A stretch of DNA of 64,000 nt from a virus. The stretch is from positions 107,523 to 171,522 of the IMG/VR virus record IMGVR_UViG_3300027754_000041; one strand, given 5' to 3'. A program made the translations under genes and the position numbers. The notes below the pieces were generated by a model. It saw only the letters and a list, made by a program, of their open reading frames with translations. It was not told the DNA's origin and made no database searches. Below, in pieces: positions 39,531-58,966 of the stretch (positions within the stretch are counted from its first letter, which is position 1; each line of letters opens with the position of its first letter).

Positions 39531-39541
39531 CTACAACGACC

Positions 39542-39913: not shown

Positions 39914-39925
39914 GTTGTTTGTCCT

Positions 39926-39994: not shown

Positions 39995-40045
39995 TTATTT
40001 CTCTTTGCCTACAGGGTAATAGTAATACATAATAATGAGATTTCA

Positions 40046-41070: not shown

Positions 41071-41105
41071 ATTCTATAATAATTACTGTCATAACATATG
41101 TTATA

Positions 41106-41456
41106 TCAGTCTGGTAAACTCACTTCCTTCCAAGAAGTGGTTTCTTCATCCCAATAATAAAATCCTTCAGATGGTCTAGGTGTTGGGGCTTGCCAATCAT
41201 GGCTTGCATCCAACGACCAAGATGGGTAAGGTTGCGGGGCGATAAATACATCTGCCTCTTCATTATAAGTGAACCCAATACCCGCATATTGTTTGCGGAT
41301 ATTATTATTATAAGAAGTGCGTACACACTTTTGTCCACGGAACTCACCATAATACTGTTCCCAATCTGAGATGCTATCTACCACTTCATCCTCGTTGCGT
41401 CCAGTAATTACTTCGGTCACAATATTATTATTATCTAAAAATGCGTAATGTGCCAT
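41106..41456 (-). CDS. Fibre-associated small protein (aquatic-phage family), copy 2
   Basis: 116 residues from ATG 41456 (MAHYAFLDNNNIVTEVITG). An in-frame TTG at 41462 is less likely. It shares with 38104-38457 the blocks TSYNNNIRKQYAGIGFTYN, YPSWSLDASHDWQAP and a Trp-rich end. The family is common beside tail fibres of aquatic T4-like phages. A stub of a glycine-rich gene ends at 41459 just upstream. The downstream neighbour is also a stub, which suggests that the gene is a recombination remnant or an insertion point. Confidence 0.7.
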   Translation of the reverse strand: MAHYAFLDNNNIVTEVITGRNEDEVVDSISDWEQYYGEFRGQKCVRTSYNNNIRKQYAGIGFTYNEEADVFIAPQPYPSWSLDASHDWQAPTPRPSEGFYYWDEETTSWKEVSLPD

Positions 41457-41458
41457 TA

Positions 41459-41515
41459 TCAACTTACCTTTCCTGTATTTAAAATAAAAGTATAAACTTT
41501 GTAGCTACTAAATAT
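41459..41515 (-). pseudogene. C-terminal stub of a glycine-rich adhesin
   Basis: The frame ending TGA at 41461-41459 reads FSSYKVYTFILNTGKVS, similar to the GYKVYTFTAGTGTVSW ends of the intact genes. No other part of the gene remains in the 100-base gap, which is otherwise AT-rich with no other clear signal. Confidence 0.5.
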
Positions 41516-41567
41516 ATGATATAGTAATTCTTATTATACCATATGCTATATGTTTTTCATATTATAA

Positions 41568-42518
41568 TTATATAGTAATTGTTCCTGTTCCTGATGTAAA
41601 AGAATAAACCTTGTAACCTGCTGGAGTTGTTCTTGTGTAAGTTAAACCAGCACCGATGGTTGTTATATCGGGATTTGTGTCGGGGTAACGAATAATAACT
41701 ACTCCTGAACCACCATTGGCACCGTTACCCCAACCGTTACCGCCGCCGCCGCCGCCGCCTGAACCCGTATTTATTGTTCCAGTTGTTGCAGCAACAGTTT
41801 CAATGGCCGTGTTGTTTGTTGCGCCTGTTCCACCTCCGCCTGAACCACCAGCCGCACCAGCGCTACCGTAAGAACCCGCACCGCCTCCACCTGCACGGGT
41901 TACTGATGCCCCCGTTATTGATGATGCTACGCCACTACCCCCAACTGTTGGGTAATTATTTGTATAATCTTGGCCTTGACCTCCAGCGCCACCGCCACCA
42001 GTTCCACCGTGAGGCATTTGATAAGCCCCACCAGTCCAGTTTCCTCCACGATAACCTTGACCACTTATTCCTGTTCCACCAAGAGTTCCTGTACCACTAC
42101 CTAAGTTTCCTACTCCGCCACCAGAACCACCGTTTGAAGATGCGGCTCTTTCAGATGTGAAAGACGCATAAGCCGCTCCACCACCAGTAGAAGTAATAGA
42201 TGCAAATATTGAATCCGTTCCTGCGGTTCGTGTATTAGCAACACCTGAAGCACCAATTGTAATGGTATAGCCTGTTCCTATCGAAACATCCAATGATGAT
42301 TCGGCACCAGCCCCGCCGCCTGAAGTAGCACCACTCATATTAGTCCTGTAGCCTCCTGCCCCACCACCACCACCAGCAAAACCGCCCGCACCACCGCCAC
42401 CGCCTGCAATGACAAGATATTCAACAGGGATAATAAACAAGGTTGTACCCAAACCTGCACCAAAATTTATCCAAGAACTAATTTTTTTATTGGTTTCACT
42501 ACGGTTACGAACTCCCAT
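41568..42518 (-). CDS. Glycine-rich adhesin (group member 2)
   Basis: About 316 residues from ATG 42518 (an in-frame TTG at 42524 is less likely), overlapping the upstream stop (TAATG). N-terminal block NKKISSWINFGAGLGTTLF with IPVEYLVIAGGGGGAG, then Gly-rich variable core, then conserved VVIIRYPDTNPDITTIGAGL and GYKVYSFTSGTGTITI. The protein has the same two-end conserved, middle-variable plan as the five genes upstream. Role as receptor-binding fibre tip is inferred from this plan. Confidence 0.7.
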   Translation of the reverse strand: MGVRNRSETNKKISSWINFGAGLGTTLFIIPVEYLVIAGGGGGAGGFAGGGGGAGGYRTNMSGATSGGGAGAESSLDVSIGTGYTITIGASGVANTRTAGTDSIFASITSTGGGAAYASFTSERAASSNGGSGGGVGNLGSGTGTLGGTGISGQGYRGGNWTGGAYQMPHGGTGGGGAGGQGQDYTNNYPTVGGSGVASSITGASVTRAGGGGAGSYGSAGAAGGSGGGGTGATNNTAIETVAATTGTINTGSGGGGGGGNGWGNGANGGSGVVIIRYPDTNPDITTIGAGLTYTRTTPAGYKVYSFTSGTGTITI

Positions 42519-43441
42519 TACCAACTCACCGTTCCTGTTCCACCTGTAAATGTATATGTTTTGTATCCACCTGAAATAACTGGTCCCGAATATGAAAGTC
42601 CAGCACCGATGGATGTTAGGTTGTTAAATGTATCTGCATAACGAATTTTTACAATACCGCTACCGCCATTTGCACCTTGCGTACCATTTCCTGCACCACC
42701 ACCACCACCACCCGTGTTACCACCGCCAACACCACCAGCAGCACCAGCATCACCACCAGCACCACCACCATAACCTCCACCTTGACCGTAAAAAGCGCTA
42801 TATTTTGCATAACGAGAACCACCGCCACCGCCACCAGAGTAATCTCCGCCAGCACTAGAAGTTAAACCAGCACCACCATTTCCTGGTTGGTCGCCATATT
42901 GTGTACCAGCAGCACTTGCACCACCACCACCAGGACTACCAACAGGGTTGGTTCCTTGCGTACCTAATGTATAACTAGCACCATCCCAACCTTGTCCAGC
43001 ATAACCACTACCACCAGTGCTGCCGTTAAGGTTTGATGCACCACCGCCTGAACCACCTGAAGCACCGCCAAGTGACCAAGGTGCACCATAACCACCGCCA
43101 GAAGATGTTATTGAACCAAAAGTAGAATTCTCGCCTTGACCACCACCGCCTGAACCACCTCCTCCAACAGTAACCGTGTATGAAGTTCCTTGGCTAACAC
43201 TTAATGCAGATTCTGTCGCCGCTCCCCTACCCGAAGTATCTGAACCAATAGATGTGCGATAACCACCTGCGCCACCTCCGCCTCCAGACCAAGCGCCACC
43301 TCCGCCTCCACCTCCGCCTGCAACTACAAGAAATTGAACACTTGTAGGACCAAATGTTGTTGTACCCAAACCACCAAATTCACTATTCAACCAAGTACTA
43401 ACTTTTGTATTAGTTCTAGTACGTATACGAAAAATGCTCAT
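42518..43441 (-). CDS. Glycine-rich adhesin (group member 3)
   Basis: 307 residues. N-terminal block with NTKVSTWLNSEFGGLGTTTF and VQFLVVAGGGG, a long Gly-rich centre containing aromatic residues (YAKYSAFYGQGGG), and a C-terminus VKIRYADTFNNLTSIGAGL, GYKTYTFTGGTGTVSW. The stop overlaps the next start. The centre shares little sequence with its neighbours beyond composition, so the receptor-contacting part may differ between copies. Confidence 0.7.
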   Translation of the reverse strand: MSIFRIRTRTNTKVSTWLNSEFGGLGTTTFGPTSVQFLVVAGGGGGGGGAWSGGGGGAGGYRTSIGSDTSGRGAATESALSVSQGTSYTVTVGGGGSGGGGQGENSTFGSITSSGGGYGAPWSLGGASGGSGGGASNLNGSTGGSGYAGQGWDGASYTLGTQGTNPVGSPGGGGASAAGTQYGDQPGNGGAGLTSSAGGDYSGGGGGGSRYAKYSAFYGQGGGYGGGAGGDAGAAGGVGGGNTGGGGGGAGNGTQGANGGSGIVKIRYADTFNNLTSIGAGLSYSGPVISGGYKTYTFTGGTGTVSW

Positions 43442-44355
43442 TAGACTGTGACCGTTCCTGTTCCTGCTGTAAATGTATAAACCTTGTAACCTGCTGGAGT
43501 TGTTCTCGTATAGGTCAAACCAGCACTAATGGTTGTTAAATCGTTCCAAGTGTTTGGATATCGTAGAATTACGATACCTGAACCGCCTGTACCACCAGAT
43601 TTCCCACTACCATCATATCCACAACCTCCACCACCGCCACCAGTGTTTGCCGTGCCAGGACTTCCGTTTGATAAGAAACTTCCGTTTCCACCACCGCCAG
43701 CACCACCAGCACCACCATTACCACCTAATTCACTTGTCTGACCTCCGCCTCCGCCACCACCAGCGTAAGTTACAGAAGAACCTGAAATAGCAATTGAAAC
43801 CCCAGCACCACCGACACCACCACCAGGAGCACTAGTTGCATTTCCACCAACTGCTCCAGCACCACCGCCAGCACCAGCAGGAAAACCACCCATTTGCACA
43901 TGGCTTCCGCCGCCACGACCTTGGTTGAGAGTACCTGAACCAATTGGATAAGCGTTAGAAGGAGCGCCACCACTATCCTGTCCACCGCCACTACCACCAG
44001 TAGTACCGTTGTGACCCCCACCAGTAGAAGTTATAGAACTAAACACAGAATTTTGACCATTAACTCCCCCTGCACCACCACCACCAACCGTAACTGTATA
44101 AGAAGTTCCTGCAACAACAGCAAGTGCTGATTCCAAAGATCCACCACCGCCAGTAGTTGTAACGGTTGACCTTAGCCCCCCAGCACCTCCGCCTCCGCCA
44201 GATGAACCACCTCCACCACCTCCGCCACCAGCAACAACCAGATAATCAATAGTTGGTGTAACAAATACTGTTGTATCTAATCCAATACCATCGTTCATCC
44301 AAGTCCCAATTTGTGTGTTTGTCAACGTACGTTTTTCATAGAGTAAGTTACCCAT
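43441..44355 (-). CDS. Glycine-rich adhesin (group member 4)
   Basis: 304 residues starting at ATG 44355, which overlaps the stop of the upstream gene. The head (NTQIGTWMNDGIGLDTTVF) and TIDYLVVAGGGGGG resemble the neighbours. The centre has Gly, Ser and Asn with an insert PSNAYPIGSGTLNQ. The conserved end is IVILRYPNTWNDLTTISAGL and GYKVYTFTAGTGTVTV. As in the other members, no cysteine pairs or enzymatic motif are seen. Confidence 0.7.
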   Translation of the reverse strand: MGNLLYEKRTLTNTQIGTWMNDGIGLDTTVFVTPTIDYLVVAGGGGGGGGSSGGGGGAGGLRSTVTTTGGGGSLESALAVVAGTSYTVTVGGGGAGGVNGQNSVFSSITSTGGGHNGTTGGSGGGQDSGGAPSNAYPIGSGTLNQGRGGGSHVQMGGFPAGAGGGAGAVGGNATSAPGGGVGGAGVSIAISGSSVTYAGGGGGGGQTSELGGNGGAGGAGGGGNGSFLSNGSPGTANTGGGGGGCGYDGSGKSGGTGGSGIVILRYPNTWNDLTTISAGLTYTRTTPAGYKVYTFTAGTGTVTV

Positions 44356-45239
44356 TAGACCGTTACCGTTCCTGTTCCTGCAGTAAATGTATAAACTTTA
44401 TATCCTGTTGGTGTAGTTCTAGCGTAGGTAAGACCAGCACCAATGGTGGTTAAATCGGCGTATGTGTTGGGATAACGAATAATAACAATTCCCGAACCAC
44501 CGCCAGATGCGCCACCAGAACCAGCACCACCTTGCGTACCGCCACGAGAACCACCACCGCCACCAGTGTTTACTCCACCTGCAGTAGTTGAACCATAACC
44601 ACCATTACCACCACCACCAGTTCCACCAGAAGATGCTGATGGAGCAGGATTGCCCCAGTCAATGTTACGATAGCCAGAACCACCGCCACCACCAGCATAA
44701 TAAACAGAACCTGTACCCCTGATAGTATTTTCTGTTCCAGGACCACCGTTACCTGGCGAAGTGTTACCAGACCCGTTAACACCTACACCACCAGAACCAC
44801 CGCCACCGCCATTGATGTAGTTATTGTAGGGTGACCATGTTACCGCAGCACCACCTGCATAACCCTGCACTGGAGATGTACTTGGCGTATTTCCTGAACC
44901 ACCATTACCACCACCTGAACCACCATTGGCTCCAGCAGTACCACCACCAGCAGAAGTAGTAGTAAAACATGTAGAGGATGAACCATTGGTACTGGCACCA
45001 CCGCCACCGCCAACAGTTACCGTAAAAGTAGAAAGCAATGCTGAATCATTAGTTCCTGTACGATAACCGCCAGCACCACCACCGCCACTATCGGTAGCAC
45101 CGCCACCGCCACCTGCAACAACCATAAACTCAATAGGAACAGGAAAAGCAGTTGAGCCCAAACCACCAAAAACACTATTCAACCAAGTACCAATATTAGT
45201 ATTGTTTAGCGAACGGGAATCATAGAATAAGTTACCCAT
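44355..45239 (-). CDS. Glycine-rich adhesin (group member 5)
   Basis: About 294 residues from ATG 45239. N-terminal MGNLFYDSRSLNNTNIGTWL matches the group member 4 head (MGNLLYEKRTLTNTQIGTWM), so these two are the closest pair. Gly/Ser/Asn-rich centre, with an SPYNNYINGGGG loop containing aromatic residues. The end is IVIIRYPNTYADLTTIGAGL and GYKVYTFTAGTGTVTV. The pair suggests a recent duplication. Confidence 0.7.
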   Translation of the reverse strand: MGNLFYDSRSLNNTNIGTWLNSVFGGLGSTAFPVPIEFMVVAGGGGGATDSGGGGAGGYRTGTNDSALLSTFTVTVGGGGGASTNGSSSTCFTTTSAGGGTAGANGGSGGGNGGSGNTPSTSPVQGYAGGAAVTWSPYNNYINGGGGGSGGVGVNGSGNTSPGNGGPGTENTIRGTGSVYYAGGGGGSGYRNIDWGNPAPSASSGGTGGGGNGGYGSTTAGGVNTGGGGGSRGGTQGGAGSGGASGGGSGIVIIRYPNTYADLTTIGAGLTYARTTPTGYKVYTFTAGTGTVTV

Positions 45240-46126
45240 TACCAACTCACCGTTCCTGTTCCTGCTGTAAATGTATAAACCCTATAACCAGCACGACTTA
45301 CAGTGCTTACGGAATATGTCAATCCAGCGTCAATAGAAACAGGTACGGGAAGTGAATCTGGATAAGCAACAATTACTACACCAGAACCACCACCACCACC
45401 AAGAACACCGCAATTATTCGTTATTCCTCCTGCACCACCGCCACCACCACCAGTGTTCGTGGATCCTGCGTTTGCGCTGCTGCATCCAGAGTTGGCATCA
45501 CCACCACCTCCGTTGCCCCCAGCGCCACCAACACCAGTACTATGTCCTCCACCACCACCACCGCCTGCACGAAATACGGCAGAACCAGTTATGGAGGAAG
45601 AAACTCCCGATCCACCATTTCCACCTGCACTACCATTGCCTCCCGCTCCGCTCGCTCCAGCACCACCACCTCCGCCAGCATTCATACCTGAAGCAGTACC
45701 ACCGCTATTCCCTTGTCCTGCTGTTCCACCCGCACCACCACCACCAGAACGCCCTCCTCCTCCGCCAGAACCTCCACCCCCTGCTGCACCATTATCTCCA
45801 CCACCATTACCACCACCAAATGCTGTGAATCCAAATGCAACAGAGGATAAACCTGCTGTTGGGGTAAATCCAGTAGTACCGCTAGCACCACCAGCACCAA
45901 CAGTAACAGTGTAAGCAGTTCCACTTGCAGTCGCAAAAGTTCCAGTAAGCATTCCACCAGCACCACCGCCTCCGCCACCAGCCCAAACACCACCACCACC
46001 GCCACCACCAACAACAAGGTAATCAACAGCAGGGGCAAAAGTAGTTGTACCCAAACCACCAAAACCATTATTCAACCAAGACCCAACTTGTCTACCAATA
46101 CGATTGCGAGCACGAGCATTAGACAT
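45239..46126 (-). CDS. Glycine-rich adhesin (group member 6)
   Basis: 295 residues. Head MSNARARNRIGRQVGSWLNN is more basic. The domain AVDYLVVGGGGGGG is followed by a centre of almost pure Gly/Ser/Ala with little aromatic content. The end is VVIVAYPDSLPVPVSIDAGL and GYRVYTFTAGTGTVSW. The high Gly content of the centre is the greatest of the group. ATG at 46126 overlaps the upstream stop. Confidence 0.7.
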   Translation of the reverse strand: MSNARARNRIGRQVGSWLNNGFGGLGTTTFAPAVDYLVVGGGGGGGVWAGGGGGGAGGMLTGTFATASGTAYTVTVGAGGASGTTGFTPTAGLSSVAFGFTAFGGGNGGGDNGAAGGGGSGGGGGRSGGGGAGGTAGQGNSGGTASGMNAGGGGGAGASGAGGNGSAGGNGGSGVSSSITGSAVFRAGGGGGGGHSTGVGGAGGNGGGGDANSGCSSANAGSTNTGGGGGGAGGITNNCGVLGGGGGSGVVIVAYPDSLPVPVSIDAGLTYSVSTVSRAGYRVYTFTAGTGTVSW

Positions 46127-46959
46127 TAGACAGTCACCGTTCCTGTTCCTGCAGTAAAAGAATAAATCTTATAACCACCAGTTACTGTTCTAGTATAACT
46201 AAGTCCAACGCTAATAGAAGTCAAATCAGCATAACTATCGGCATAACGAATAATCACAATGCCAGAGCCGCCTGACTGGCTACTTGCTCCGCCACCGCCA
46301 CCGGTGTTTCCACCTCCAGTACTACCACCGTTATGACCTTTGCCGCCATAGGCATAAGTTACTGATGCGCCAGAAGCAGAACTAGTTCTTCCAGAACCAC
46401 CAGAATAAGGGTCGCTGTTAGAACCAGTTGAACCCGCTCCCCCACCACCAGCACCAGCACCATCGGTGCCGTTTGCACCATTGTGACCTTGACCCGCCGT
46501 ACCAGAACCGCCAGGATACCCACCACTGTTCCCACCCCCACCCCCACCAGAACCACCAGAAGAACCAGCGTTAGGCGCTTGATTCAAACTTCCGCCTTGA
46601 CCACCTCCGGTTGAGGTAATTGAACCGAATACAGAGTTGGCACCATTGCTACCAGAACTGCTACCGCCAGTTCCTCCTGCACCAACAGTAACCGTATATG
46701 CAACCCCACCAGTAACACTGAGGGCTGATTCTAATGTTCCTGGAGTACCGCCACTCAATTCTCCAGTAATAGAACTACGATAACCACCACCACCACCACC
46801 AGAACCACGACCACCATCGGTGGAAATTCCACCACCTCCACCACCGGCAACAACAAGATACCCAATAGTTGGTGTAAAAAATGTTGTTGTTCCTAAACCT
46901 GTACCAACCCAAGCACCAACGCCTGTATTTGTTCTGAAACGAAGACCCAATGAAGACAT
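46126..46959 (-). CDS. Glycine-rich adhesin (group member 7)
   Basis: 277 residues, shortest of the run. The head MSSLGLRFRTNTGVGAWVGTG is followed by the TIGYLVVAGGGGGG block, Gly/Ser/Asn centre with VFGSITSTGGGQGGS, and end IVIIRYADSYADLTSISVGL and GYKIYSFTAGTGTVTV. It is the first adhesin gene after the short fibre protein 46969-47340 in the direction of transcription. Confidence 0.7.
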   Translation of the reverse strand: MSSLGLRFRTNTGVGAWVGTGLGTTTFFTPTIGYLVVAGGGGGGISTDGGRGSGGGGGGYRSSITGELSGGTPGTLESALSVTGGVAYTVTVGAGGTGGSSSGSNGANSVFGSITSTGGGQGGSLNQAPNAGSSGGSGGGGGGNSGGYPGGSGTAGQGHNGANGTDGAGAGGGGAGSTGSNSDPYSGGSGRTSSASGASVTYAYGGKGHNGGSTGGGNTGGGGGASSQSGGSGIVIIRYADSYADLTSISVGLSYTRTVTGGYKIYSFTAGTGTVTV

Positions 46960-49241: not shown

Positions 49242-50048
49242 TTATTGTGTTATTCTCTTTAAATAATCTAACATTTTACCGGTATATTTAATGCGGCCAA
49301 AATGAGTTAAATTGATAGTTGGATCAACCCAAATCTTTCCACCCATCTTTTGCCAGTAGCGGCAGAAGCCATAATCTTCAGATAAGAATCTGCCATCGTC
49401 ATCTACATACGAGTTGAACAGAGCGTAAGCATTTTCTACTTCATTGCCGGACAAAGCGCCTGTATCATCTTTATATTTTAATTTTTTATACTTCTTAAAC
49501 ATCTTATCAAATACTTGGCGCTTAATAACCATGAAACCAGTTCCAGCTTCATAGCATTCAATTGCTCCGTTATCAATATTTAATTCTTTTTCGCCGGGCT
49601 TAGTTAAATGAACTACATATCTAGTAGAGAACTCCATTAGATCACTAGCTGGAAGATCCGCTTGTGCGGCTTCTTTTACTTTATCCCAATTAATTTCCTT
49701 AATTGGATATGATGCGGTCATCACATCTTTATCATGCCACAAAAGTTTTATAATAGCTTCTTTGTCGAATTGAAGATCAGCATCTATAAATACCATGTGG
49801 GTAAAATCTGGACTACCCATAAACTTGGCAGCAAGGTTGTTTCTTGCGCGATTGATCAAAGAATCAGATATTGTACAGACTGAGTACTTTAAACCTATTT
49901 CCTTGAAATAAAGACAAGCTTGCAAAAAGCTCATCATAAAAGGTTCTGTTACGTGTGAGTCGTAACATGGAAGGGCAAAGAAAACATTCCATTCTTGGAG
50001 TTTTTCTTTAGGAATTGTTATGTTGATTTGTTTTTCGTCTACAGGCAT
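49242..50048 (-). CDS. Glycosyltransferase (GT-A type)
   Basis: 268 residues. FFALPCYDSHVTEPFMMSFLQ, SLINRARNNLAAKF, and THMVFIDADLQFDKEAIIKLL give a GT-A fold with the metal/nucleotide-sugar DxD motif (IDADLQ). ...FLSEDYGFCRYWQKMGGKIWVDPTINLTHFG supplies the acceptor region. It is a paralogue of the plus-strand gene 50854-51525. It could glycosylate virion fibres or host surface sugars. An extended -10 lies only 6 bases before the ATG, so the messenger may start at or near the start codon (leaderless). Confidence 0.8.
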   Translation of the reverse strand: MPVDEKQINITIPKEKLQEWNVFFALPCYDSHVTEPFMMSFLQACLYFKEIGLKYSVCTISDSLINRARNNLAAKFMGSPDFTHMVFIDADLQFDKEAIIKLLWHDKDVMTASYPIKEINWDKVKEAAQADLPASDLMEFSTRYVVHLTKPGEKELNIDNGAIECYEAGTGFMVIKRQVFDKMFKKYKKLKYKDDTGALSGNEVENAYALFNSYVDDDGRFLSEDYGFCRYWQKMGGKIWVDPTINLTHFGRIKYTGKMLDYLKRITQ

Positions 50049-50054
50049 AGAAAT

Positions 50055-50063
50055 ATTATATCA
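50055..50063 (-). promoter_or_regulatory. Extended -10 promoter element for the minus-strand glycosyltransferase
   Basis: Minus strand TGATATAAT gives a TGn extended -10 (50063-50055). Initiation 6-7 bases downstream would be at or next to the ATG at 50048, so the transcript would be leaderless or nearly so. No ribosome site precedes this start. Confidence 0.45.
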
Positions 50064-50088
50064 CAAACAACGCCAATATTGCTACTTA

Positions 50089-50097
50089 TGCTATAAT
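50089..50097 (+). promoter_or_regulatory. Extended -10 promoter element for the plus-strand sugar genes
   Basis: Plus strand TGCTATAAT gives a perfect extended -10 (TGn-TATAAT) at 50089-50097, in a back-to-back arrangement with the minus-strand element 26 bases away. It would drive the three plus-strand genes. Confidence 0.5.
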
Positions 50098-50140
50098 AGT
50101 ATTATCTATAAAAAATGAACAAACAAAGGGCTAAAAAGGA

Positions 50141-50179
50141 ATGAAAAATTATGCATTTATGGCAGGATTGCCATATTAA
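50141..50179 (+). other. 12-residue leader ORF (possible remnant of a lost gene)
   Basis: After an AAAAAGGA site, ATG 50141 encodes a 12-residue peptide ending MAGLPY, with TAA overlapping the ATG of the glycosyltransferase (TAATG at 50177-50181). It resembles the start of sulfotransferase-type proteins, where AGLP precedes RSGST, so it may be a truncated 5' end of a replaced gene that now provides translational coupling. Short length makes this uncertain. Confidence 0.35.
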
Positions 50180-50844
50180 TGTCTATTCCCGTCTTGATTA
50201 TTCCTGTCCTTAACAGATTTGACCTTCTTGAGCAATGTATTCAGTCAATTGATTATCCGATAGACAATTTGCTGATTATTGACAACAGCAACTCCTACAT
50301 TTTGCCTGATGGACTATATGCGGGAAGCGTTCAGGTTTTAAACATGCCAGCCAATATGGGGGCTGCTGGTTCATGGAATCTGGGAATAAAGTGTTTTCCA
50401 CATTCACCGTACTGGGTTATTGGCTCAAACGATACACACTGGAATTCTGGCGCATTGTTGAAGATGGAAGAATCTAGTAGCGAAAATAGACTTGTCCTAT
50501 CCACAGAGGGATGGAACACATTTTCCGTTGGTTCTGAGGTTGTTAAAAGGGTTGGATTGTTTGATGAAAATTATCATCCCGCATACTACGAAGATGGCGA
50601 CTACGCGGAAAGAATGAAGAAGTTGGGGGTTCAGGATTGGTTGGTGGGTTCTGAAGTTGACGTTAATTGTCTTGGCGCCTCAACGACCCTCCACAGCAAC
50701 CAAAAGTTTGAGGAATTAAACAAAGTTACCAATGAATCAAACTATCAATACTTTTCAAGGAAAAATTCTTCCGATAATGAATTCTCTCTAGAATACCAAT
50801 ATCAGTTACAACGCAGAATAGACAACGAATGGCTTAAGGACTAG
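50179..50844 (+). CDS. Glycosyltransferase family 2-like protein
   Basis: 221 residues, PVLIIPVLNRFDLLEQCIQSI with LLIIDNSNS and MPANMGAAGSWNLGI, the N-terminal GT-A pattern of family 2. The usual DxD is not obvious, and the motif corresponding to it reads SND. ...FDENYHPAYYEDGDYAERMKKLG carries the ED-type acceptor motif. It would transfer a sugar from a nucleotide donor. It is on the plus strand, starts by coupling from the leader ORF, and is 9 bases from the next gene. Confidence 0.75.
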   Translation: MSIPVLIIPVLNRFDLLEQCIQSIDYPIDNLLIIDNSNSYILPDGLYAGSVQVLNMPANMGAAGSWNLGIKCFPHSPYWVIGSNDTHWNSGALLKMEESSSENRLVLSTEGWNTFSVGSEVVKRVGLFDENYHPAYYEDGDYAERMKKLGVQDWLVGSEVDVNCLGASTTLHSNQKFEELNKVTNESNYQYFSRKNSSDNEFSLEYQYQLQRRIDNEWLKD

Positions 50845-50853
50845 GATAAAACA

Positions 50854-51525
50854 ATGGACAAACCGCATTTCAACGTAGTATTTGCAACACCGGGAGCAGG
50901 AATGACACCGGGATATGTGCGCAGTCTGCTCAAAACAACATACTTCCTCACCCAACAAGGGTTGACATGGAACTTTATGACCGAGTACTCCTCGCTTGTC
51001 GCCCACGCACGAGAAAAAACGATTGGTGGAACTGGATATCAAGACCGCAGCAACAGACAGCCAGGAAAAGGTGAGTGGACATACGACAAAATTATGTGGA
51101 TTGACTCAGACATTGAATGGGAACCAGAAGACTGTTTCCGTTTACTTGAATCCGAAAAAACAATCATTTCTGGTTGCTACATGATGGAAACAGAAGAAGT
51201 AACCGTATATCCAGTTCCCCTAGGTAACCCACTACATAAGAATGACATACTTAAATTAAAAAAACCGTTCACCGTTCGTGGTGTCGGTTTCGGATTTCTT
51301 GCTGTTGGCGTCGGCGTTTTTGAAACCATGGAGCGTCCTTGGTTTTCCCAAGTTGAGGTTGAAGTTATGAATGAGGAAACTGGAGAGATGGAATACAAGT
51401 TTCCATTGATGGGTGAAGATTTGTCGTGGTGCGAAAAAGCGTACCGTATGGGTCACGAAATATGGGTTGACCCCCTTGTTCGTGTCACCCACCAAAAGAC
51501 AATGAAACTCGTCTGGCCGCAATGA
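50854..51525 (+). CDS. Glycosyltransferase (paralogue of 49242-50048)
   Basis: 223 residues: VFATPGAGMTPGYVRSL, KIMWIDSDIEWEPEDCFRLL (DxD in DSDIE), GVGFGFLAVGVGVFE, FPLMGEDLSWCEKAYRMGHEIWVDPLVRVTHQ. The pattern corresponds block by block to 49242-50048 (IDADLQ, GTGFMVIKRQVFD, FLSEDYGFCRYW, WVDPTINLTH). The two are on opposite strands and flank the divergent promoter region. The stop overlaps the next start (ATGA). Confidence 0.75.
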   Translation: MDKPHFNVVFATPGAGMTPGYVRSLLKTTYFLTQQGLTWNFMTEYSSLVAHAREKTIGGTGYQDRSNRQPGKGEWTYDKIMWIDSDIEWEPEDCFRLLESEKTIISGCYMMETEEVTVYPVPLGNPLHKNDILKLKKPFTVRGVGFGFLAVGVGVFETMERPWFSQVEVEVMNEETGEMEYKFPLMGEDLSWCEKAYRMGHEIWVDPLVRVTHQKTMKLVWPQ

Positions 51526-52436
51526 GTGAATACATGCCACCAATGGGGGGTAGTGACATCATGCTTAATGGGCTTTTGAGACATGTTGATGTTAACGCTT
51601 ACAATGTGAATATTATTAGTTCACGTTGCCAAGAAGACTTAATCAAAGACGGCAAGATAAACATTCTTTGGCAACATTTAAGTTACAACGAACCACTCAC
51701 CCAAGGCATGACAAACAAATTCTTTACAAGAGCAATTGATGCTTTTGTGTATGTGTCCCACTGGCAACATGAAAAGTTTAGGTATGTGTACCATATTCCA
51801 GTAAGTAATGCATTCGTAATCAAAAATGCTATTGAACCAATTGAATACATACCGCGTCAAAAGGGTGAGAAGATTCGCCTTATCTACACCTCTGCGCCAT
51901 TCCGTGGATTAAATGTTTTATTGGATGCTTTTGAGTTGCTTAATAGGGACGATATAGAACTGTATGTGTATTCGTCAACCATTGTGTACGGAACCAACTA
52001 CGACAATGTTCATAGCGAAATATATGAGCCGTTGTTTGAGCGTGCAAGAAACATGAAAAATGTTCACTACATGGGGTATGCAAAAAATACCGAGATTATT
52101 AAGGCTCTTCAGTCTTCCCATATTTTTGCTTATCCAACGATGTTTGAAGAAACATGCTGTTTGGCAATGATTGAGGCGGGCGCCGCTGGATGCAAAATGG
52201 TCTCACATAATCTTGGTGCGGTTTATGAAACTGGTTCGGAATTTGCCCGTCTTGTTCCTATACGCATAGAGGCAGATGAACTGGCATCGGAGTATGCGAA
52301 AGCGTTGAGTGAAGAAATAGATTCTTATTGGGAAAAGACTGATTTGCTGAAATGGCAATCAGATTTCTATAACAACTTTTATTCTTGGGACAAGCGAAAA
52401 GTAGAGTGGGAGACTCTGTTTTCTCGCCTTACCTAA
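51522..52436 (+). CDS. Glycosyltransferase family 4-like protein
   Basis: 304 residues: MPPMGGSDIMLNGLLRHVD, then INILWQHLSYN, FVYVSHWQHEKFRYVY, IRLIYTSAPFRGLNVLLDAF, VHYMGYAKNTEIIKALQSSHIFAYPTMFEETCCLAMIEAGAAGCKMVSHNLGAV. The EETCCLAMIEAGAAG segment matches the EX7E region of GT-B (family 4) enzymes. ATG 51522 overlaps the upstream TGA. Its end (WETLFSRLT) is repeated near 53232. The final bases overlap the 3' end of a minus-strand fibre stub. Confidence 0.8.
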   Translation: MSEYMPPMGGSDIMLNGLLRHVDVNAYNVNIISSRCQEDLIKDGKINILWQHLSYNEPLTQGMTNKFFTRAIDAFVYVSHWQHEKFRYVYHIPVSNAFVIKNAIEPIEYIPRQKGEKIRLIYTSAPFRGLNVLLDAFELLNRDDIELYVYSSTIVYGTNYDNVHSEIYEPLFERARNMKNVHYMGYAKNTEIIKALQSSHIFAYPTMFEETCCLAMIEAGAAGCKMVSHNLGAVYETGSEFARLVPIRIEADELASEYAKALSEEIDSYWEKTDLLKWQSDFYNNFYSWDKRKVEWETLFSRLT

Positions 52437-52491
52437 ATTTTACCCAGGCTTCGTACCCTGGTGGGGTTTCAACTTGGGGGGCTAGTATTTT
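52407..52491. repeat. Direct repeat copy A (~85 bases) flanking the methyltransferase
   Basis: This segment contains the last codons of the glycosyltransferase and a fibre C-terminus. It is repeated, with about ten differences, at 53233-53318 in the same orientation. It spans the end of one gene and the opposite-strand end of another, so the repeat is a copy of a gene junction. Confidence 0.75.
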
Positions 52492-52530
52492 ACCGAAGTT
52501 ACTTGGCGGCAGATATGCCGATTGTTGTCT
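52429..52530 (-). pseudogene. C-terminal stub of a beta-propeller fibre
   Basis: A frame ending TAA at 52431-52429 reads AYLPPSNFGKILAPQVETPP then GYEAWVKFR. The second half matches the end of the 53255-54346 protein (APQVETPTGYEAWVKIR). No ATG and no repeat units remain. It overlaps the glycosyltransferase 3' end by 8 bases, as the intact fibre does with the glycosyltransferase stub at copy B. Confidence 0.65.
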
Positions 52531-53187
52531 TTACTTGTAAACGCAGAGGATATAACTGTCGGAAACTACGTCTTCTTCTGTCGGCTCCATAGTTTCACGG
52601 TCCATGACTTTCCCGGGAACCAGAGACTGGAACACCTCGTATGTGTGTCCTCCTGCGGTCATGTACGCTTCGAGTTGGACAAGCGTTTGCTGCCAATCGT
52701 TCGCATGTGCGCCAGCGTCTTGAATGTCCTCAATGAGATACATTCCGCCAGTCTTAATCGCTGGGAAAAGCGCCTGAAATGTGGTGACGGTATTTGCATA
52801 GATGTGTGATGCGTCGTCAATGACTATATCAAACTCAACAGCGAAGGCTGCCTTTAGGGCATCAAATGATTCTGCAACTTCCTGGTCAACAACATGCGTG
52901 CTGATTTTGCCAGAATTAAATAATTGAGACTCTTTTTTGTCTGCACCGTAGATGTTCGCAGATGGGAATACCGAAGCCCAAGCGTTGAGGTCTGTGTGCT
53001 GAAGTTCATTTAAAAATAAACCAATTTCAAGAAAGTTGCTCACAGTCTTGCCGTCAAACAGGTGTGCGAATACCTTGTCGTATCCGTGCCCGGATGCCTT
53101 ATCTGAATACGAAGCATTCAGGGCGGTAGCGATTGTTGTTGAGAGTGCCTCGTCGAAGGCGTAGGTTCCGTGTAGTTTCATAGACAA
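52531..53187 (-). CDS. SAM-dependent methyltransferase (class I, O-methyltransferase-like)
   Basis: 218 residues: VSNFLEIGLFL supplies motif I, ANIYGADKKES the acidic loop, FDIVIDDASHIYANTV motif IV, and GGMYLIEDIQDAG motif V, as in macrocin/CmcI-type class I methyltransferases. It would methylate a sugar or small molecule, plausibly a glycan made by the neighbouring glycosyltransferases. It is inserted between two ~85-base direct repeats in the fibre region. It has no upstream neighbour on its strand, so it probably relies on read-through or its own promoter, which I could not identify. Higher GC than the tail genes. Confidence 0.8.
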   Translation of the reverse strand: MSMKLHGTYAFDEALSTTIATALNASYSDKASGHGYDKVFAHLFDGKTVSNFLEIGLFLNELQHTDLNAWASVFPSANIYGADKKESQLFNSGKISTHVVDQEVAESFDALKAAFAVEFDIVIDDASHIYANTVTTFQALFPAIKTGGMYLIEDIQDAGAHANDWQQTLVQLEAYMTAGGHTYEVFQSLVPGKVMDRETMEPTEEDVVSDSYILCVYK

Positions 53188-53232
53188 AATTGTAGCACGG
53201 AATGGTATCCGGAGTGTGAAATGTCCGGTAGG

Positions 53233-53318
53233 TGGGAAACTTTGTTTTCTCGCCTCACCTAATTTTCACCCAGGCTTCGTATCCTGTTGGGGTTTCAACT
53301 TGGGGGGCTTGTATTTGT
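53233..53318. repeat. Direct repeat copy B, with glycosyltransferase stub
   Basis: Copy of 52407-52491. On the plus strand the start reads WETLFSRLT followed by a stop near 53262, the last nine residues of the 51522-52436 protein, with no upstream gene. On the minus strand it is the real C-terminus of the propeller gene 53255-54346. The stub shows that the methyltransferase was added by duplication of this junction. Confidence 0.7.
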
Positions 53319-54346
53319 GTTCTTGCGAAATCTAGTGTTCTTAGTAAACCACTATTGCCAGCGATAACCGTGATGTTGTTGTTATTGGTGACAAAGCGAA
53401 TTGCAGTGCTATAACCAGATGTTCGTGTTGTCCAAGTTGCGGCATCGGTGGAAGTTCTTATTTGACCACCATCACCACCTGCAAACCAAAGATTATTGCC
53501 GTAGGCAACCCAGTTGATGGCTGTAGTACCAAAGTTTGGGGTTCTGGTTGTCCAGGTTATTGCATCCGTGGAGGTGCGGAGTTGACCAGTATTTCCACCA
53601 GCGACCCAAAGACTATTTCCGTAGGCAACCGAGTAGACGGCTGTAGTACCAAAGTTTGAGGTTCGTGTAGTCCAAGTTATGGCGTCAGTTGAGGTGCGGA
53701 GTTGACCAGTATTTCCACCAGCGACCCAAAGACTATTTCCGTAGGCGACGGAGTAGATGGCTGTAGTACCAAAGTTTGAGGTTCGTGTAGTCCAAGTTAT
53801 GGCGTCAGTTGAGGTGCGGAGTTGACCAGTATTTCCACCAGCGACCCAAAGATTATTGCCGTAAGCAACCAACATGATATCGGTTATACCGAAGTTTGAG
53901 GTTTGTGTGGTCCAAGTTATGGCATCGGTTGAAGTTCGGAGTTGACCAGTATTACCAGCAGCAACCCAAAGGCTGTTTCCGTAAGCGACCGTGTTGATAT
54001 CGGTAGTTGCGCCAAAGGCAGAGGTTTGTGTTGTCCAAGTTACGGCGTCGGTTGAAGTCCTCAGTCCACCAAGACCACCAACGGCGACCCAAAGATTATT
54101 ACCGTAAGCGACAGAATAAACGTTACTTGTACCAAAGTTGGCTGTTGCTGTAGTCCAAACTAAACCAGACAATATATCGTTTGGTGACAACGGATACAAC
54201 TTTCTAACAAGAGCGGCGGTTCTTGGTAAAATTTCTGTACTTTTAACCCATGATTTACCTAATATGTTTTTGTTTCCAATTGGCAAAATAGCATAAGCAC
54301 CAACAGACAGTTGACCACTTTTTATCTTTCCCACTCCGTTATTCAT
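53255..54346 (-). CDS. Beta-propeller-like repeat fibre 1
   Basis: About 363 residues from ATG 54346 (MNNGVGKIKSGQLS), overlapping the upstream TGA (ATGA). The ~60-residue head is followed by about seven ~40-residue repeats with pattern WTTxTSNFG, xINxVAYGNxLWVAGGNTGQLRTSTDAIT. Such repeats with conserved Trp, Gly and Asp resemble BNR/Kelch-type propeller blades. Two of the DNA repeats are nearly identical over about 90 bases. The end APQVETPTGYEAWVKIR is also in the stub at 52429. Likely a receptor-binding fibre; carbohydrate binding is inferred from fold only. Confidence 0.7.
   Translation of the reverse strand: MNNGVGKIKSGQLSVGAYAILPIGNKNILGKSWVKSTEILPRTAALVRKLYPLSPNDILSGLVWTTATANFGTSNVYSVAYGNNLWVAVGGLGGLRTSTDAVTWTTQTSAFGATTDINTVAYGNSLWVAAGNTGQLRTSTDAITWTTQTSNFGITDIMLVAYGNNLWVAGGNTGQLRTSTDAITWTTRTSNFGTTAIYSVAYGNSLWVAGGNTGQLRTSTDAITWTTRTSNFGTTAVYSVAYGNSLWVAGGNTGQLRTSTDAITWTTRTPNFGTTAINWVAYGNNLWFAGGDGGQIRTSTDAATWTTRTSGYSTAIRFVTNNNNITVIAGNSGLLRTLDFARTQIQAPQVETPTGYEAWVKIR
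53460..54120 (-). repeat. Tandem ~120-base propeller repeats
   Basis: Repeat units of ~120 bases. Bases 53641-53732 are identical to 53761-53852, and the 53581-53700 and 53701-53820 parts are nearly identical. Divergence increases toward the gene 5' end. The homogeneity points to recent expansion or conversion. Confidence 0.75.
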
Positions 54347-55404
54347 GATTTTACCCACATCCCAGTTTGTAATGGGATTGAATATTGGTTTAAAGAGGGA
54401 GAACGAATTTGACCACTCTCACCAGCAGCAACCCAGAGGCTGTTAGCGTAAACGACCGAGTTGATGCCTACTGTACCGAAGTTTGAGTTTTGGGTGGTCC
54501 AAGTCACGGCATCGGTTGAAGTTCTAAGTTGACCAGAAAGACCAGCGGCAACCCATAAGCTGTTTCCGTAAGCAACCGTGTAGATGGTTGTAGCACCAAA
54601 GTTTGAGGTTTGTGTAGTCCAAGTAGCAGCGTCGGTTGAGGTTCTTATTTGACCAGCAACACCAACAGCAACCCAGAGATTGTTCCCGTAGGCGACTTCG
54701 TTGATGATTGTGGTGCCGAAGTTTGAGGTTTGTGTAGTCCAAGTTATAGCGTCAGTGGAAGTACGAAGTTGACCAGCACTACCAGCAGCAACCCAAATGT
54801 TGTTGTCGTAGGCGACTTTGTTAATGGCTGAAGCACCGAAGTTTGAGGTTTGTGTAGTCCAAGTTACGGCGTCGGTTGAAGTTCTAAGTTGACCAGAAGC
54901 ACCACCAGCGACCCAAATGTTGTTGGCGTAGGCGACAGAGTTGATGGTTGTAGCACCAAAGTTTGAGGTTTGTGTAGTCCAAGTAGCAGCGTCTGTTGAA
55001 GTTCTCAATTGACCAGCAACACCAACAGCAACCCAGAGATTGTTCCCGTAGGCGACCGAATTTATGACTGTGAGATTACCAAAGTTTGATGTGCGAGTTG
55101 TCCAAGTTATTGCATCGGTTGAGGAACGAAGTGTTCCATAACCTCCGACAGCAACCCAAATGTTGTTGCCGTAGGCTACAGAGTAGATGATGTTAGTACC
55201 AAAGGTAGATGTTTGTGTTGTCCATACAAAATTCTTTAATTTCAACAACTTTTGACCAAAGTTTTTATTGATTCCTCGCTGATATAATTTTCTGTTAACC
55301 CCATCCAAAGATACCCAGCCAACTCCTGGGCTACCAGCAGATGCAATTACCTCGCCAGTAAAATATTTATCTGGCACCCTATTCCCAAATGTTCCTTTGT
55401 TCAT
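54343..55404 (-). CDS. Beta-propeller-like repeat fibre 2
   Basis: 353 residues, about eight ~40-residue repeats of the same WTTQTSNFG...VAYGNNLWVAVGxxGQLRTSTDA type as the neighbouring genes, with a unique ~55-residue head (MNKGTFGNRVPDKYFTGEVI) and a short different tail (YSIPLQTGMWVKS). ATG 55404 overlaps the upstream TGA. The head resembles the MNKGTF head of fibre 3, so the same attachment point is likely. The repeats differ mainly at residues after TSNFG and before VAYGN. Confidence 0.7.
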   Translation of the reverse strand: MNKGTFGNRVPDKYFTGEVIASAGSPGVGWVSLDGVNRKLYQRGINKNFGQKLLKLKNFVWTTQTSTFGTNIIYSVAYGNNIWVAVGGYGTLRSSTDAITWTTRTSNFGNLTVINSVAYGNNLWVAVGVAGQLRTSTDAATWTTQTSNFGATTINSVAYANNIWVAGGASGQLRTSTDAVTWTTQTSNFGASAINKVAYDNNIWVAAGSAGQLRTSTDAITWTTQTSNFGTTIINEVAYGNNLWVAVGVAGQIRTSTDAATWTTQTSNFGATTIYTVAYGNSLWVAAGLSGQLRTSTDAVTWTTQNSNFGTVGINSVVYANSLWVAAGESGQIRSPSLNQYSIPLQTGMWVKS

Positions 55405-56498
55405 GGCAGGACATATCCAATCGTGTTGGTAAATGAGTAACCACGAATACTTTGATTATTTATAGAAGTGCGAAGTTGACCTGCTTGACCACCAGCAACC
55501 CACAGGCTGTTTCCGTAAGCAACCGTATAGATGTCTGTAGTTGCACCAAAGGCGGAGGTTTGTGTAGTCCAAGTTATAGCGTCTGTGGAAGTTCTGAGTT
55601 GACCCGCACCACCAACAGCAACCCACAAGTTGCTGCCGTAACTGACCGAGTTGATGGTGGATACGCCGAAGTTTGATGTTTGTGTAGTCCATGTAACAGC
55701 GTCTGTTGAGGTTCTTATTTGACCACTATTGCCAGCAGCAACCCAAAGACCGTTGCCGTAAGCAACCGTGTTGACGTTGGTAGCACCAAACGGGTTTGAT
55801 GAGGCTTGTAAGTTTGTCCAACTTGTACCATTTGTAGAAGTTCTAAATGAACCAGCATTCCCAACAGCAACCCACACGTTATTCCCGTAGGCAACCGAGT
55901 TGATGGCGGTTACGCCGAGTGTATATCTTGTTGTCCAAGTAACAGCATCGGTTGAGGTTTTTAATTCAGCAGCAGCAGCAAGCCAAAAACCGTTGCCGAA
56001 GGTTACACAGTTGATACTTCCAGTACCGTAGGTTTGTGTGGTCCAAGTTATAGCATCAGTGGAAGTTCGGAGTGAATTAGAGCCAACAGCAACCCAAAGA
56101 TTGTTTCCGTAAGCAACCGAGTTGATGGCTGTAGCACCAAAGTTTGAGGTTTGTGTAGTCCAAGTCACGGCATCGGTTGAAGTTCTAAGTTGACCAGCAG
56201 CACCAACAGCAACCCAAAGACTGTTGCCATAAGCGACTTCGTTGATGTTTGAAATACCGAAGTTTGAGGTTTGTGTTACAAATGTTACAGGAGAACCAAA
56301 ATAACCCACGTACCTACGAGACAGTGTTGCACCAACAGGTTTATGCCTTGATGTTGGAGGTTTAAACCCAGGATAAAACTGTCTAATACTTTCTGGGTCA
56401 TCTTCCACTGGAACATAAGCAAAGCCATCTGCATTAAGCCCTTGTTCTACAACGCTGCGGCTATTTCTGCGTGTTCCGCTAAATGTGCCTTTATTCAT
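55401..56498 (-). CDS. Beta-propeller-like repeat fibre 3
   Basis: 365 residues: head MNKGTFSGTRRNSRSVVEQG with a Pro-rich linker (RQFYPGFKPPTSRHKPVG), then about eight repeats of the propeller type, several divergent (one reads FRTSTNGTSWTNLQASSNPFG), and a new C-terminus ending TIGYVLP. The stop overlaps the next start (ATGA at 55404). The most diverged repeats of the three propeller genes are here, so it is probably the oldest copy. Confidence 0.7.
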   Translation of the reverse strand: MNKGTFSGTRRNSRSVVEQGLNADGFAYVPVEDDPESIRQFYPGFKPPTSRHKPVGATLSRRYVGYFGSPVTFVTQTSNFGISNINEVAYGNSLWVAVGAAGQLRTSTDAVTWTTQTSNFGATAINSVAYGNNLWVAVGSNSLRTSTDAITWTTQTYGTGSINCVTFGNGFWLAAAAELKTSTDAVTWTTRYTLGVTAINSVAYGNNVWVAVGNAGSFRTSTNGTSWTNLQASSNPFGATNVNTVAYGNGLWVAAGNSGQIRTSTDAVTWTTQTSNFGVSTINSVSYGSNLWVAVGGAGQLRTSTDAITWTTQTSAFGATTDIYTVAYGNSLWVAGGQAGQLRTSINNQSIRGYSFTNTIGYVLP

Positions 56499-56504
56499 TT
56501 TCTC

Positions 56505-56885
56505 TTAGAAATCGCCGCCAAAGGCAAAAACATGGTATGTTTCCGTTGCATGGGTTGTTGCACGAAGAGAATACCCTGTCGGAATAACCAACGAGTTAAA
56601 CGTGAGTGTTGTATTAAACGAGTCCTGTGATGCTCCAGGGGTAATTGCTGTGGTCAAAACTTCTTGCAACAGGTAATACACTGAACCAGTGTAAATGAAC
56701 AAACGAACCACGTTTGATGTTGATGTACCTGCTGCTGTAATTGTTACTTCATCAATACGACTACCTGATGCGCCAGCGGTAAGTACTGTACCAACGTTTG
56801 TTGGTGCTGTTCTTGATGTGTCTGCTGTGCCGATTGATACTGCTGAACATCTTGGTGTTGCTGCGAATGCTGGTGCTGCTGCCAT
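56505..56885 (-). CDS. Short fibre-base protein (member of the small beta family)
   Basis: 126 residues: MAAAPAFAATPRCSAVSIGTAD, then RIDEVTITAAGTSTSNVVRLFIY, YYLLQEVLTTAITPGASQDSFN and a beta end (LRATTHATETYHVFAFGGDF). The pattern resembles the 39542 and 46969 proteins (DEIWLY..., LTIEWG..., LxxGN). It stands before the propeller genes in transcription order, as the other copies stand next to fibres. No enzymatic motif. It probably forms a base-of-fibre or head-decoration ring. Confidence 0.6.
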   Translation of the reverse strand: MAAAPAFAATPRCSAVSIGTADTSRTAPTNVGTVLTAGASGSRIDEVTITAAGTSTSNVVRLFIYTGSVYYLLQEVLTTAITPGASQDSFNTTLTFNSLVIPTGYSLRATTHATETYHVFAFGGDF

Positions 56886-56913
56886 GATTTATTTCTCCTA
56901 TTTTCTTTGTTGG

Positions 56914-57219
56914 TTATCTGTACATCATTGATTGAACTACTGGGTCGGAACCTGTTGCGCCTGTTGCACCTGTTGCACCTGTTGCACCTGTTGTTCCTGC
57001 GGGTCCTGTTGCACCTGTTGCACCTGTTGCACCTGCGGGTCCTGTTGCACCTGTTGCACCTGTTGCACCTGTCGCACCTGTCGGTCCAGAAGATCCTTGA
57101 AGGTTGGAGGTGGATACTCCTACGAGTGTCCATGACACACCATTATACAACCATGTCTTCCCAGCAGTTGTGAAGGTGTCATTTGTTGACGGTGAGTTAG
57201 GGAAATCTATAGCAGCCAT
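56914..57219 (-). CDS. Collagen-like short fibre
   Basis: 101 residues. N-terminal ~35 residues ([21 protein letters not shown] with a Trp/Tyr-rich end) match the head of the 57393 fibre ([18 protein letters not shown]), a probable attachment module. Residues ~45-90 are Gly-X-Y triplets ([19 protein letters not shown]), which form collagen-like triple helices in phage fibres. The C-terminus is short and polar. It has no trimerisation domain I can see. The 2-oxoglutarate oxygenase at 37461 might act on its Pro residues, but few are in the Y position. Confidence 0.75.
56945..57085 (-). repeat. Tandem 9/18-base collagen repeat
   Basis: Near-perfect direct repetition of CTGTTGCAC-type units on the plus strand, encoding Gly-Ala-Thr and Gly-Pro-Ala triplets. 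Such simple repeats can gain or lose units in frame without breaking the reading frame. Confidence 0.85.
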
Positions 57220-57393
57220 TTAACTATTATCCCATTCTTCGGCGGTGTTACCTTCAGCAACCCACGCTAGGTATTGCTGGTAATCAGAATTAGCAGGGTC
57301 TGGTGGGATGCAGGAACCGTCCGAAATACGCACAATAGAAAAATCAAACTGAATTGGTATCAACCCTTCCGTCTGCCTATAAATAGAATACAT
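57220..57393 (-). CDS. Small tail-fibre-associated protein, 57 residues
   Basis: ATG 57393 overlaps the stop of the upstream gene by one base (TAATG), and the frame ends at TAA 57222-57220. It reads [19 protein letters not shown], then [29 protein letters not shown]. The PANxDYxxYLAW-EGN signature occurs in small proteins next to phage fibres (XkdW-like and tail-fibre chaperone-like). It is too short for automatic detection but has a clean coupled start. Function is inferred from this pattern. Confidence 0.75.
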
Positions 57394-58778
57394 TACAACT
57401 CCGAACTCAAACTTAGTTGACGACCATTAATGGAAACATTCACTGCGTAACCGTCAGACATCCCAGAAAACCCAGGAAGGTTAAAAGTAATATAACTGTT
57501 AAAAAAACCAAGAACAGTTATTGAAGTACTGGTGGATGCGACAGCACCGTTGTGTCTCCATGCATAAGATGTCCCCGCCGCTAAAGTGGTAGTCGGTGAT
57601 GCACGCAAAGTAACAGGAAGTGGCAACGTAAATCTTGCTTCTGTTGTTCCGCTACCCAAACCAGCGCATACCGCATCTGTTGTAGTTTGGAAGTAACGCT
57701 GACATTTGGCAAGTGTTGTGCAAATGTCTTCAAACTCAAATGGTGTAGCAACAGAACCAACCTCAAGTTGAACACCAGTAATCTCAAAATAGTCGTTCGT
57801 GCCAGCAGTACCAGTTGGGGTCATATAAAAAGTTGAAGCAACTTCTGTAATTGTTGCACCTATAGCGACTGTTTGCGAATAACGAGCCCAAGTAGTAGTA
57901 ATTGCTTGAGTCGTGTTGATTGGAATTGTTTGCCCTGTATAACCACCACTGTATGGGTTTTGGTCTGTGCCAGTACCAGCAAATAATTGAACACCAAGCA
58001 AAGATGATGTTGGTGAATAGTTAGCACCTGCTCTAGCATAAAAAGATAAAGTAACAGTTTTGCCAACAAATGGAATTGTATTTACTGTTTCAAGTGCCTG
58101 ATAAATACCATAAGCCGTTGTACTTGTTTGTCCAGAGTTGCGTTGAAAACGCATACAGTATTGAATAAAAGGCAGATTAGTTGTGTCGTTTGTAGATTGG
58201 CGTGAAATAGTAGAGGCGGAAGCCGCTGCACTTGTAGCCCAACGGTCTGATAAGTAAACATTTGCTGCTGATGTAGCGATTGAAGTGCCACGCTGCCAAG
58301 TGGACATATTGCCGTTGATAATCGCATTACGATTAGACGTAACAGCCGTGGTCGCCGTAAGTTTAGAATCTAATTGTGTTTGGATGGCTGAGGTTACGCC
58401 GTCTACATACCCGATTTCGGTGTTGGAAACAGTACCAATAGAAGTTGTAGCGGGCAGAACTACTGTTCCCGTAAAAGTAGGGCTTGCGATGTTTGCTGGC
58501 GTATAGCCAATATTCGTAACAGCAGCACCAGAAGCGATTTTCCCTGCGGTCACATTGGCGTCAAGAATCTTTGCTGTTGTTACAGCATCGGAGGCAATTT
58601 TCCCTGCCGTTACGGAAAGGTTGTCAATCTTTGCTGTAGTAACACCTAAATCTGTTAATTGGCTGGTTGTAATTAACCCGCCCGTCATTTCCCAAACAGA
58701 ACCCGTCCATGTATATGTACGAGAACCTACGGTGTAGGTGTCGTTGGTAGCAGGGGAAGCAGGGAATGTAAATGCCAT
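57393..58778 (-). CDS. Tail fibre with repeat shaft and C-terminal carbohydrate-binding-like domain
   Basis: 461 residues. The [20 protein letters not shown] head resembles the collagen-like fibre head. The shaft has [25 protein letters not shown] repeats, then [18 protein letters not shown] globular end ([52 protein letters not shown]) matches the bacteriophage carbohydrate-binding-module-like domain common in fibres. ATG 58778 overlaps the stop of the upstream small gene. Confidence 0.75.
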
Positions 58779-58966
58779 TAGATACCCCCAAGTAGTAGTT
58801 GTGCTTCTTCAGCGGTGATACCTAGGCGGGTAAGTAATGCTTCACGGGCTACAGCACGGGATGCGGATTCATCGGCTTGTGCCTGCAATTCTGCTTGGTC
58901 GGCTGCAACCTGTGCAAGTTCTGCTTTGGTCATATCACGAACTTCATTACCAATTTGTATTTTCAT
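58778..58966 (-). CDS. Small coiled-coil protein (copy 1)
   Basis: 62 residues: MKIQIGNEVRDMTKAELAQV, then an Ala/Gln/Glu-rich helix (AADQAELQAQADESASRAVARE), then LLTRLGITAEEAQLLLGGI. It is clearly the paralogue of 59625-59819: same length, the VAREALLTxLGITAxEAQLLLGG end is nearly identical. A short coiled coil is predicted from the helix composition. Both copies sit immediately before a fibre-like protein, a typical place for a fibre assembly chaperone, which is inference. Confidence 0.75.
   Translation of the reverse strand: MKIQIGNEVRDMTKAELAQVAADQAELQAQADESASRAVAREALLTRLGITAEEAQLLLGGI

Follow-up and report, generated by a model that had tools for sequence, protein, structure and literature searches.

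A phage moron is a single gene that has been inserted between two genes lying side by side in related phages. Genes are also exchanged in T4-type phages by promoter-stem-loop (PeSL) mediated shuffling, in which an early promoter and a stem-loop flank the exchanged gene (Arbiol 2010; Comeau 2014; both as cited in PMC4503421), and for the "ORFanage" of cyanophage S-PM2 an illegitimate acquisition of genes during concatemerisation has been proposed (PMC4503421). How, then, does a methyltransferase gene come to lie between a glycosyltransferase gene and a fibre gene that adjoin each other in related phages?

The locus described here was analysed in a stretch of 64,000 nucleotides (the window), corresponding to positions 107,523 to 171,522 of the 171.5-kb virus record IMGVR_UViG_3300027754_000041. 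As in a moron, one foreign gene, together with its own upstream region, separates two genes that are neighbours in relatives; unlike in a moron, the insert is bordered by duplicated ends of both neighbours, and the promoter-like and terminator-like sites found there are at chance level. The likeness to the PeSL cases lies in gene shuffling within the variable region of a large myovirus; the flanking repeat, however, is made of coding-gene ends and not of a regulatory element, and neither a promoter-stem-loop nor a promoter-like site was found at the insert borders. Across the ATG-start ORFs, a leaderless TANNNT promoter signal gave no clear peak. With S-PM2 the locus shares the proposed entry of foreign genes via illegitimate recombination, whereas the S-PM2 locus lost a whole ORF region in culture and here one gene was gained, with no loss seen. 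Neither a mobility gene nor terminal inverted repeats were found in the insert, which sets it apart from transposons, insertion sequences and homing elements. The case fits known phage gene gain by illegitimate recombination, of the moron or modular-exchange kind, as a clear and fairly ordinary example.

The duplicated gene junction

Three glycosyltransferase genes on the plus strand (GT221, GT223 and GT304) are followed by the methyltransferase gene (MT) and three fibre genes (FIB3, FIB2 and FIB1, in that order), all on the minus strand. The features of the locus, in window coordinates, are as follows.

50179..50844, plus strand: GT221, a GT2-type (rhamnosyl/galactosyl-like) glycosyltransferase (PF00535 weak; phrog_29879, 5e-34)
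50845..50853: 9-nt slot just upstream of GT223, the position of the methyltransferase in relatives
50854..51525, plus strand: GT223, a predicted GT-A-fold glycosyltransferase (phrog_1574, listed as unknown function)
51522..52436, plus strand: GT304, a GT4-family glycosyltransferase (PF13692, 1.8e-10; PF00534)
52406-52490 (52401-52490 with gap): repeat copy A, functional GT304 end and truncated fibre-gene end
52491..52530: linker of 40 nt
52531..53181, minus strand: MT, 216-aa MycE/SpnK-like methyltransferase (ATG at 53181, upstream TTG at 53187)
53182..53227, minus strand: MT 5′ flank, homologous as far as copy B to the MT-GT223 intergenic region of the related phage L017
53232-53316 (53228-53316 with gap): repeat copy B, truncated GT304 end and functional FIB3 end
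53255..54358, minus strand: FIB3, a propeller-type fibre (kelch-like, 40-aa repeat; Kelch_6, 2.8e-6) with 120-nt repeats

Copies A and B form the direct repeat D14, which extends ungapped over 85 nt with 77 identical positions (91%), eight differences and a start-to-start spacing of 826 nt. Allowing one 1-nt gap lengthens it to 90 nt (self-BLAST E 6e-26), and the longest run of identical bases between the copies is 22 nt. Its 41-nt core occurs exactly twice in the window and in none of 100 shuffles, while the other pairs listed in the self-comparison of the record reach at most 84% identity and are found either in tandem-repeat and adhesin-type regions or where paralogous genes start. The fold z-score of the repeat is 0.31. 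A sequence-only reading of this DNA had proposed a repeat of about 85 bases carrying pieces of both neighbours; the repeat is real, the proposed coordinates are correct to within 1-2 nt, and translation on both strands bears out the content. On the plus strand both copies encode WETLFSRLT*, the stop-codon end of GT304, and on the minus strand both encode ...APQVETP(P/T)GYEAWVK(F/I)R*, the end of the convergent propeller fibre. As also claimed, the intact GT304 ends in copy A (which holds its last 30 nt) and the intact fibre gene in copy B, with the methyltransferase between them. GT304 and FIB3 are tail-to-tail genes whose stop codons overlap, 8 nt being common to both (52429-52436).

The 40-nt linker has no match in this record or in the compared relatives, and its hairpin (52507-52520) is weak and not above shuffles. 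Its reading as a diverged fibre end was not accepted (fibre-like translation, P 0.08).

The AlphaFold model of GT223 (pLDDT 87) has STIV A197, COLGALT1, Mnn9 and the PBCV-1 capsid glycosyltransferase among its Foldseek matches, and by this structure prediction phrog_1574 is a GT-A-fold glycosyltransferase. Two divergent paralogues, 27% identical, lie near each other at 50854-51525 and 49242-50048.

The methyltransferase and its relatives

The MT profile matches MycE (HMM E 1.6e-17) over about 95 residues, and also the PDB entry 8ia9 (SpnK), a demethylmacrocin O-methyltransferase. The structure predicted from five sequences (pLDDT 83) retrieves MycE/SpnK enzymes first in Foldseek (E 2.6e-10; TM 0.61 on the query). 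The protein has a class I SAM fold with DD(G/A)SH and (V/I)IED metal/base motifs, and residues D123, H126, E151 and D152, invariant in five phage homologues, would align with D275, H278, E303 and D304 of MycE, numbered as the alignment position minus a 20-residue tag. In MycE itself, D275, H278 and D304 are active-site residues, and the two aspartates are magnesium ligands (PMC9275233). MT thus resembles the sugar O-methyltransferases MycE, SpnK, TylE and ThnM1 (PDB 3ssm and 8ia9; PMC9275233) in the sequence and fold of the catalytic domain, but it has 216 aa and no long N-terminal part, against a two-domain enzyme of about 400 aa, and it is a phage gene whereas the MycE type belongs to antibiotic pathways. 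Because of this short length, and because only about 95 residues align, MT is best described as working like MycE and not as a full member of its group.

Since its matches are to MycE and SpnK, MT probably O-methylates a glycan sugar and not DNA. The gene had been described as a modification cassette; the modification is most likely sugar O-methylation, and a DNA-modifying role was set aside, the best matches being sugar O-methyltransferases. With three adjacent glycosyltransferases and propeller fibres beside it, the target is most likely a sugar handled by the neighbouring glycosyltransferases, carried on the virion fibres or on a host surface glycan.

MT occurs together with GT223 and GT304 in four distinct IMG/VR phages: L014, L015 (the same as L016), L017 (the same as L019) and L018. 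In all four, MT is a minus-strand gene immediately upstream of GT223 and divergent from it, while GT304 lies tail-to-tail with the fibre gene with no gene between. Apart from MT, every gene of the present phage from GT221 past FIB1 to a 126-aa gene has its counterpart in L015. The corresponding slot of the present phage, 9 nt long, holds no remnant of a methyltransferase, and the 85-nt repeat has no match in the loci of the four relatives. GT304 and the fibre gene adjoin in these phages and in L040 and L043. Their stop codons overlap by 11 nt in L014 and L015 and by 14 nt in L040 and L043, but L017 and L018 have small gaps of 87 and 7 nt, so the overlap is not universal.

In L040, GT223 is preceded by an FkbM methyltransferase and separated from GT304 by a second class-I methyltransferase (3977-4648 and 5339-5863); the methylating partner of the same glycosyltransferase pair therefore differs between phages, which suggests that methyltransferases are exchanged at different slots.

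An insert between GT304 and FIB3 was seen in one genome only. The sequence-only reading had advised looking for an empty, single junction in related phages, and no close relative with one was found: an exact 20-mer and a degenerate fibre-tail pattern had no IMG/VR matches, the region had no nucleotide match in the phage record collection, and a profile search of genome contigs with MT found none.

MT shares 92.6% of its amino acids and 89.4% of its nucleotides with its L017 counterpart (dS 0.48, dN 0.037), against 69% identity for GT304 and 71% for GT223, whose silent sites are saturated. Its dN/dS of about 0.08 indicates purifying selection. Between L017 and L018 themselves, both glycosyltransferases are 93% alike and MT 86%, and the L015 methyltransferase is 49% identical to that of the window. 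The gene trees conflict. For GT223, the window groups with L015 and all tested alternatives are rejected, including a position inside L017/L018 (AU p 2e-5); for GT304, the same grouping is the best topology, others being accepted as well; for MT, the window falls within the L017/L018 group and a grouping with L015 is rejected (AU p 0.0003). An identity far above that of its neighbours, together with these conflicting trees, shows that MT was horizontally acquired; it is also relocated with respect to the slot that it occupies in relatives. The odd position of MT here points to transfer towards this phage. A purely vertical relocation is rejected by the gene trees.

Across the whole L017 genome only about 32 ORFs match, with a median of 55% aa identity, and MT is the top outlier. 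MT is not the sole recently shared piece: although L017 is otherwise distant, two segments of the record beyond the window (genome 47826-48430 and 42791-43031) are 84-85% identical to it in nucleotides.

Origin of the duplicated junction

Clear similarity to L017 runs from the MT stop codon (52530) to about 17 nt upstream of the MT start. Beyond that point, the L017 MT-GT223 intergenic region still gives a weaker ungapped match (18 of 30 positions; none of 20,000 shuffles was as good), which reaches as far as copy B, and the changeover there is a GTAG common to the GT304 end and the insert side. By this comparison, the imported stretch includes a donor-type upstream region up to copy B.

The region is rather likely to be the scar of one illegitimate (non-homologous) insertion made during recombination with another phage. 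In this lineage, the slot common to its relatives would have lost its methyltransferase or been without one, and MT with its upstream region would have come from a distantly related phage with an L017/L018-type gene, entering at the tail-to-tail GT304/FIB3 junction by template switching or, alternatively, by overlapping-end joining during replication-linked recombination. The junction would have been left about 54 nt past the GT304 stop, within the end of the fibre gene (52490), and re-entered about 30 nt upstream of that stop, so that some 90 nt of the junction were duplicated around the insert. Because the GT304 and FIB3 stop codons overlap, a simple insertion anywhere in the junction would change the end of one protein or of both; only one that duplicates the junction spares the two neighbours, which is why both are intact here. 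Selection would have kept an insertion that duplicated the junction and left both neighbour proteins whole, and from this one event we infer that selection explains the repeat. The suggestion that the gene was gained by an insertion with recombination and duplication of a junction is supported by the identity of MT (93% aa, dS 0.48) relative to its neighbours and by the conflicting trees. Counted against this model are the single genome, the failure to find a close relative with an empty GT304/FIB3 junction, the 40-nt linker and the gaps in L017 and L018. It also leaves unpredicted the 9% divergence of the copies, which may reflect either drift of the remnants since or descent from two parents.

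Descent from two parents is at the heart of a chimera followed by a deletion, which we consider possible but unlikely. An unequal crossover would have joined the recipient's GT304 and junction A to a donor's MT-GT223′-GT304′-junction B-FIB3, and a later deletion would have removed the redundant GT223′ together with most of GT304′; the glycosyltransferase tail in copy B and FIB3 would then be of donor origin. Such a route accounts for an MT-GT223 intergenic flank that runs straight into a GT304 tail, for the kept orientation of MT, and for the 9% divergence of the copies with its mostly silent changes (five of the eight differences are silent in every frame that they touch). However, it needs two illegitimate events where one suffices, and no donor with this junction was found in IMG/VR or the phage record collection. 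For the silent-change pattern, P is 0.03 if drift is wholly neutral and 0.24 if only the two remnants drift, which is not significant against simple drift; on this pattern the copies may come from one parent or from two.

The locus had also been read as a movable cassette, with the repeats as recombination sites for recurrent gain and loss of MT. Homologous exchange from one copy to the other would indeed take out 826 nt without damage to either flanking gene, and the type and slot of the methyltransferase vary around the glycosyltransferase core (L040 has the FkbM and second class-I enzymes instead). Yet the insert encodes no transposase, integrase or homing endonuclease, has no terminal inverted repeats, and contains MT as its only substantial gene; the repeat does not accompany MT at other sites, and the excised form was not seen at any locus compared. 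An active, excisable element is accordingly improbable. The reading had named conserved presence of the methyltransferase without repeats in all relatives as the observation that would count against it. The relatives do carry the gene without repeats, but at a different slot, which on these comparisons refutes the repeats as a device of movement and not the insertion itself. A further, quite speculative extension, to which we give similarly little credence, is that the duplicated junction acts as a built-in reset that lets the phage population alternate between surface glycan with and without methylation, overlapping tail-to-tail genes being landing sites that accept genes only with such resets; if so, exchange between the 85-nt copies would remove MT with both overlapping neighbours unharmed.

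It is more doubtful still that an in-lineage tandem duplication of MT-GT223-GT304-junction was followed by loss of the first MT and the second glycosyltransferase pair. This would yield the same order and the same repeat, and the relatives do have MT at the old slot, but the window has an MT of the L017/L018 group next to glycosyltransferases that favour L015, whose methyltransferase is only 49% identical. The gene trees contradict this route unless gene conversion replaced MT at a later time. Although the record is a single metagenomic contig, an assembly artefact joining pieces of two phages is scarcely credible, as no run of identical bases between the copies exceeds 22, the closest MT relative has a different neighbourhood, and mis-joining would hardly create a glycosyltransferase tail between MT and FIB3.

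The locus is an unusually legible footprint of the uptake of one foreign gene, from which one can make out the type of donor, the former and present slots and one breakpoint. It yields a testable rule, namely that insertions at overlapping-stop junctions should carry a duplicated junction, for which phage genomes can be scanned, and it points to the exchange of sugar-decorating enzymes beside receptor-binding fibres.

The surrounding accessory region

The virus record encodes a tail sheath and a DnaE-type polymerase whose nearest relatives are those of Streptomyces phages (38%), on which grounds the phage is possibly an actinobacterial myovirus. Its core-gene relatives G007, G012 and G013 are syntenic, with about 65-75% nucleotide identity over the core; direct sequence comparison found the GT304/MT/fibre block absent from all three. 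A stretch of 8.9 kb (window 50049-58965; genome 157.57-166.49 kb) is bordered by genes whose G012 homologues are 155 nt apart. This absence and this spacing suggest that the block of glycosyltransferase and fibre genes is an accessory island of 8.9 kb. G006, which is close to this phage in its core (99% in DNA polymerase), is represented by a 79-kb fragment and stops short of the locus.

Elsewhere in the window, positions 56914-57219 encode, on the minus strand, a collagen-like protein with GAT/GPA repeats. A long run of repeated modules with spacings of about 900 nt, rich in CCACCA-type codons, occupies 38600-46900; these modules are probably glycine-rich adhesin-like proteins encoded on the minus strand.
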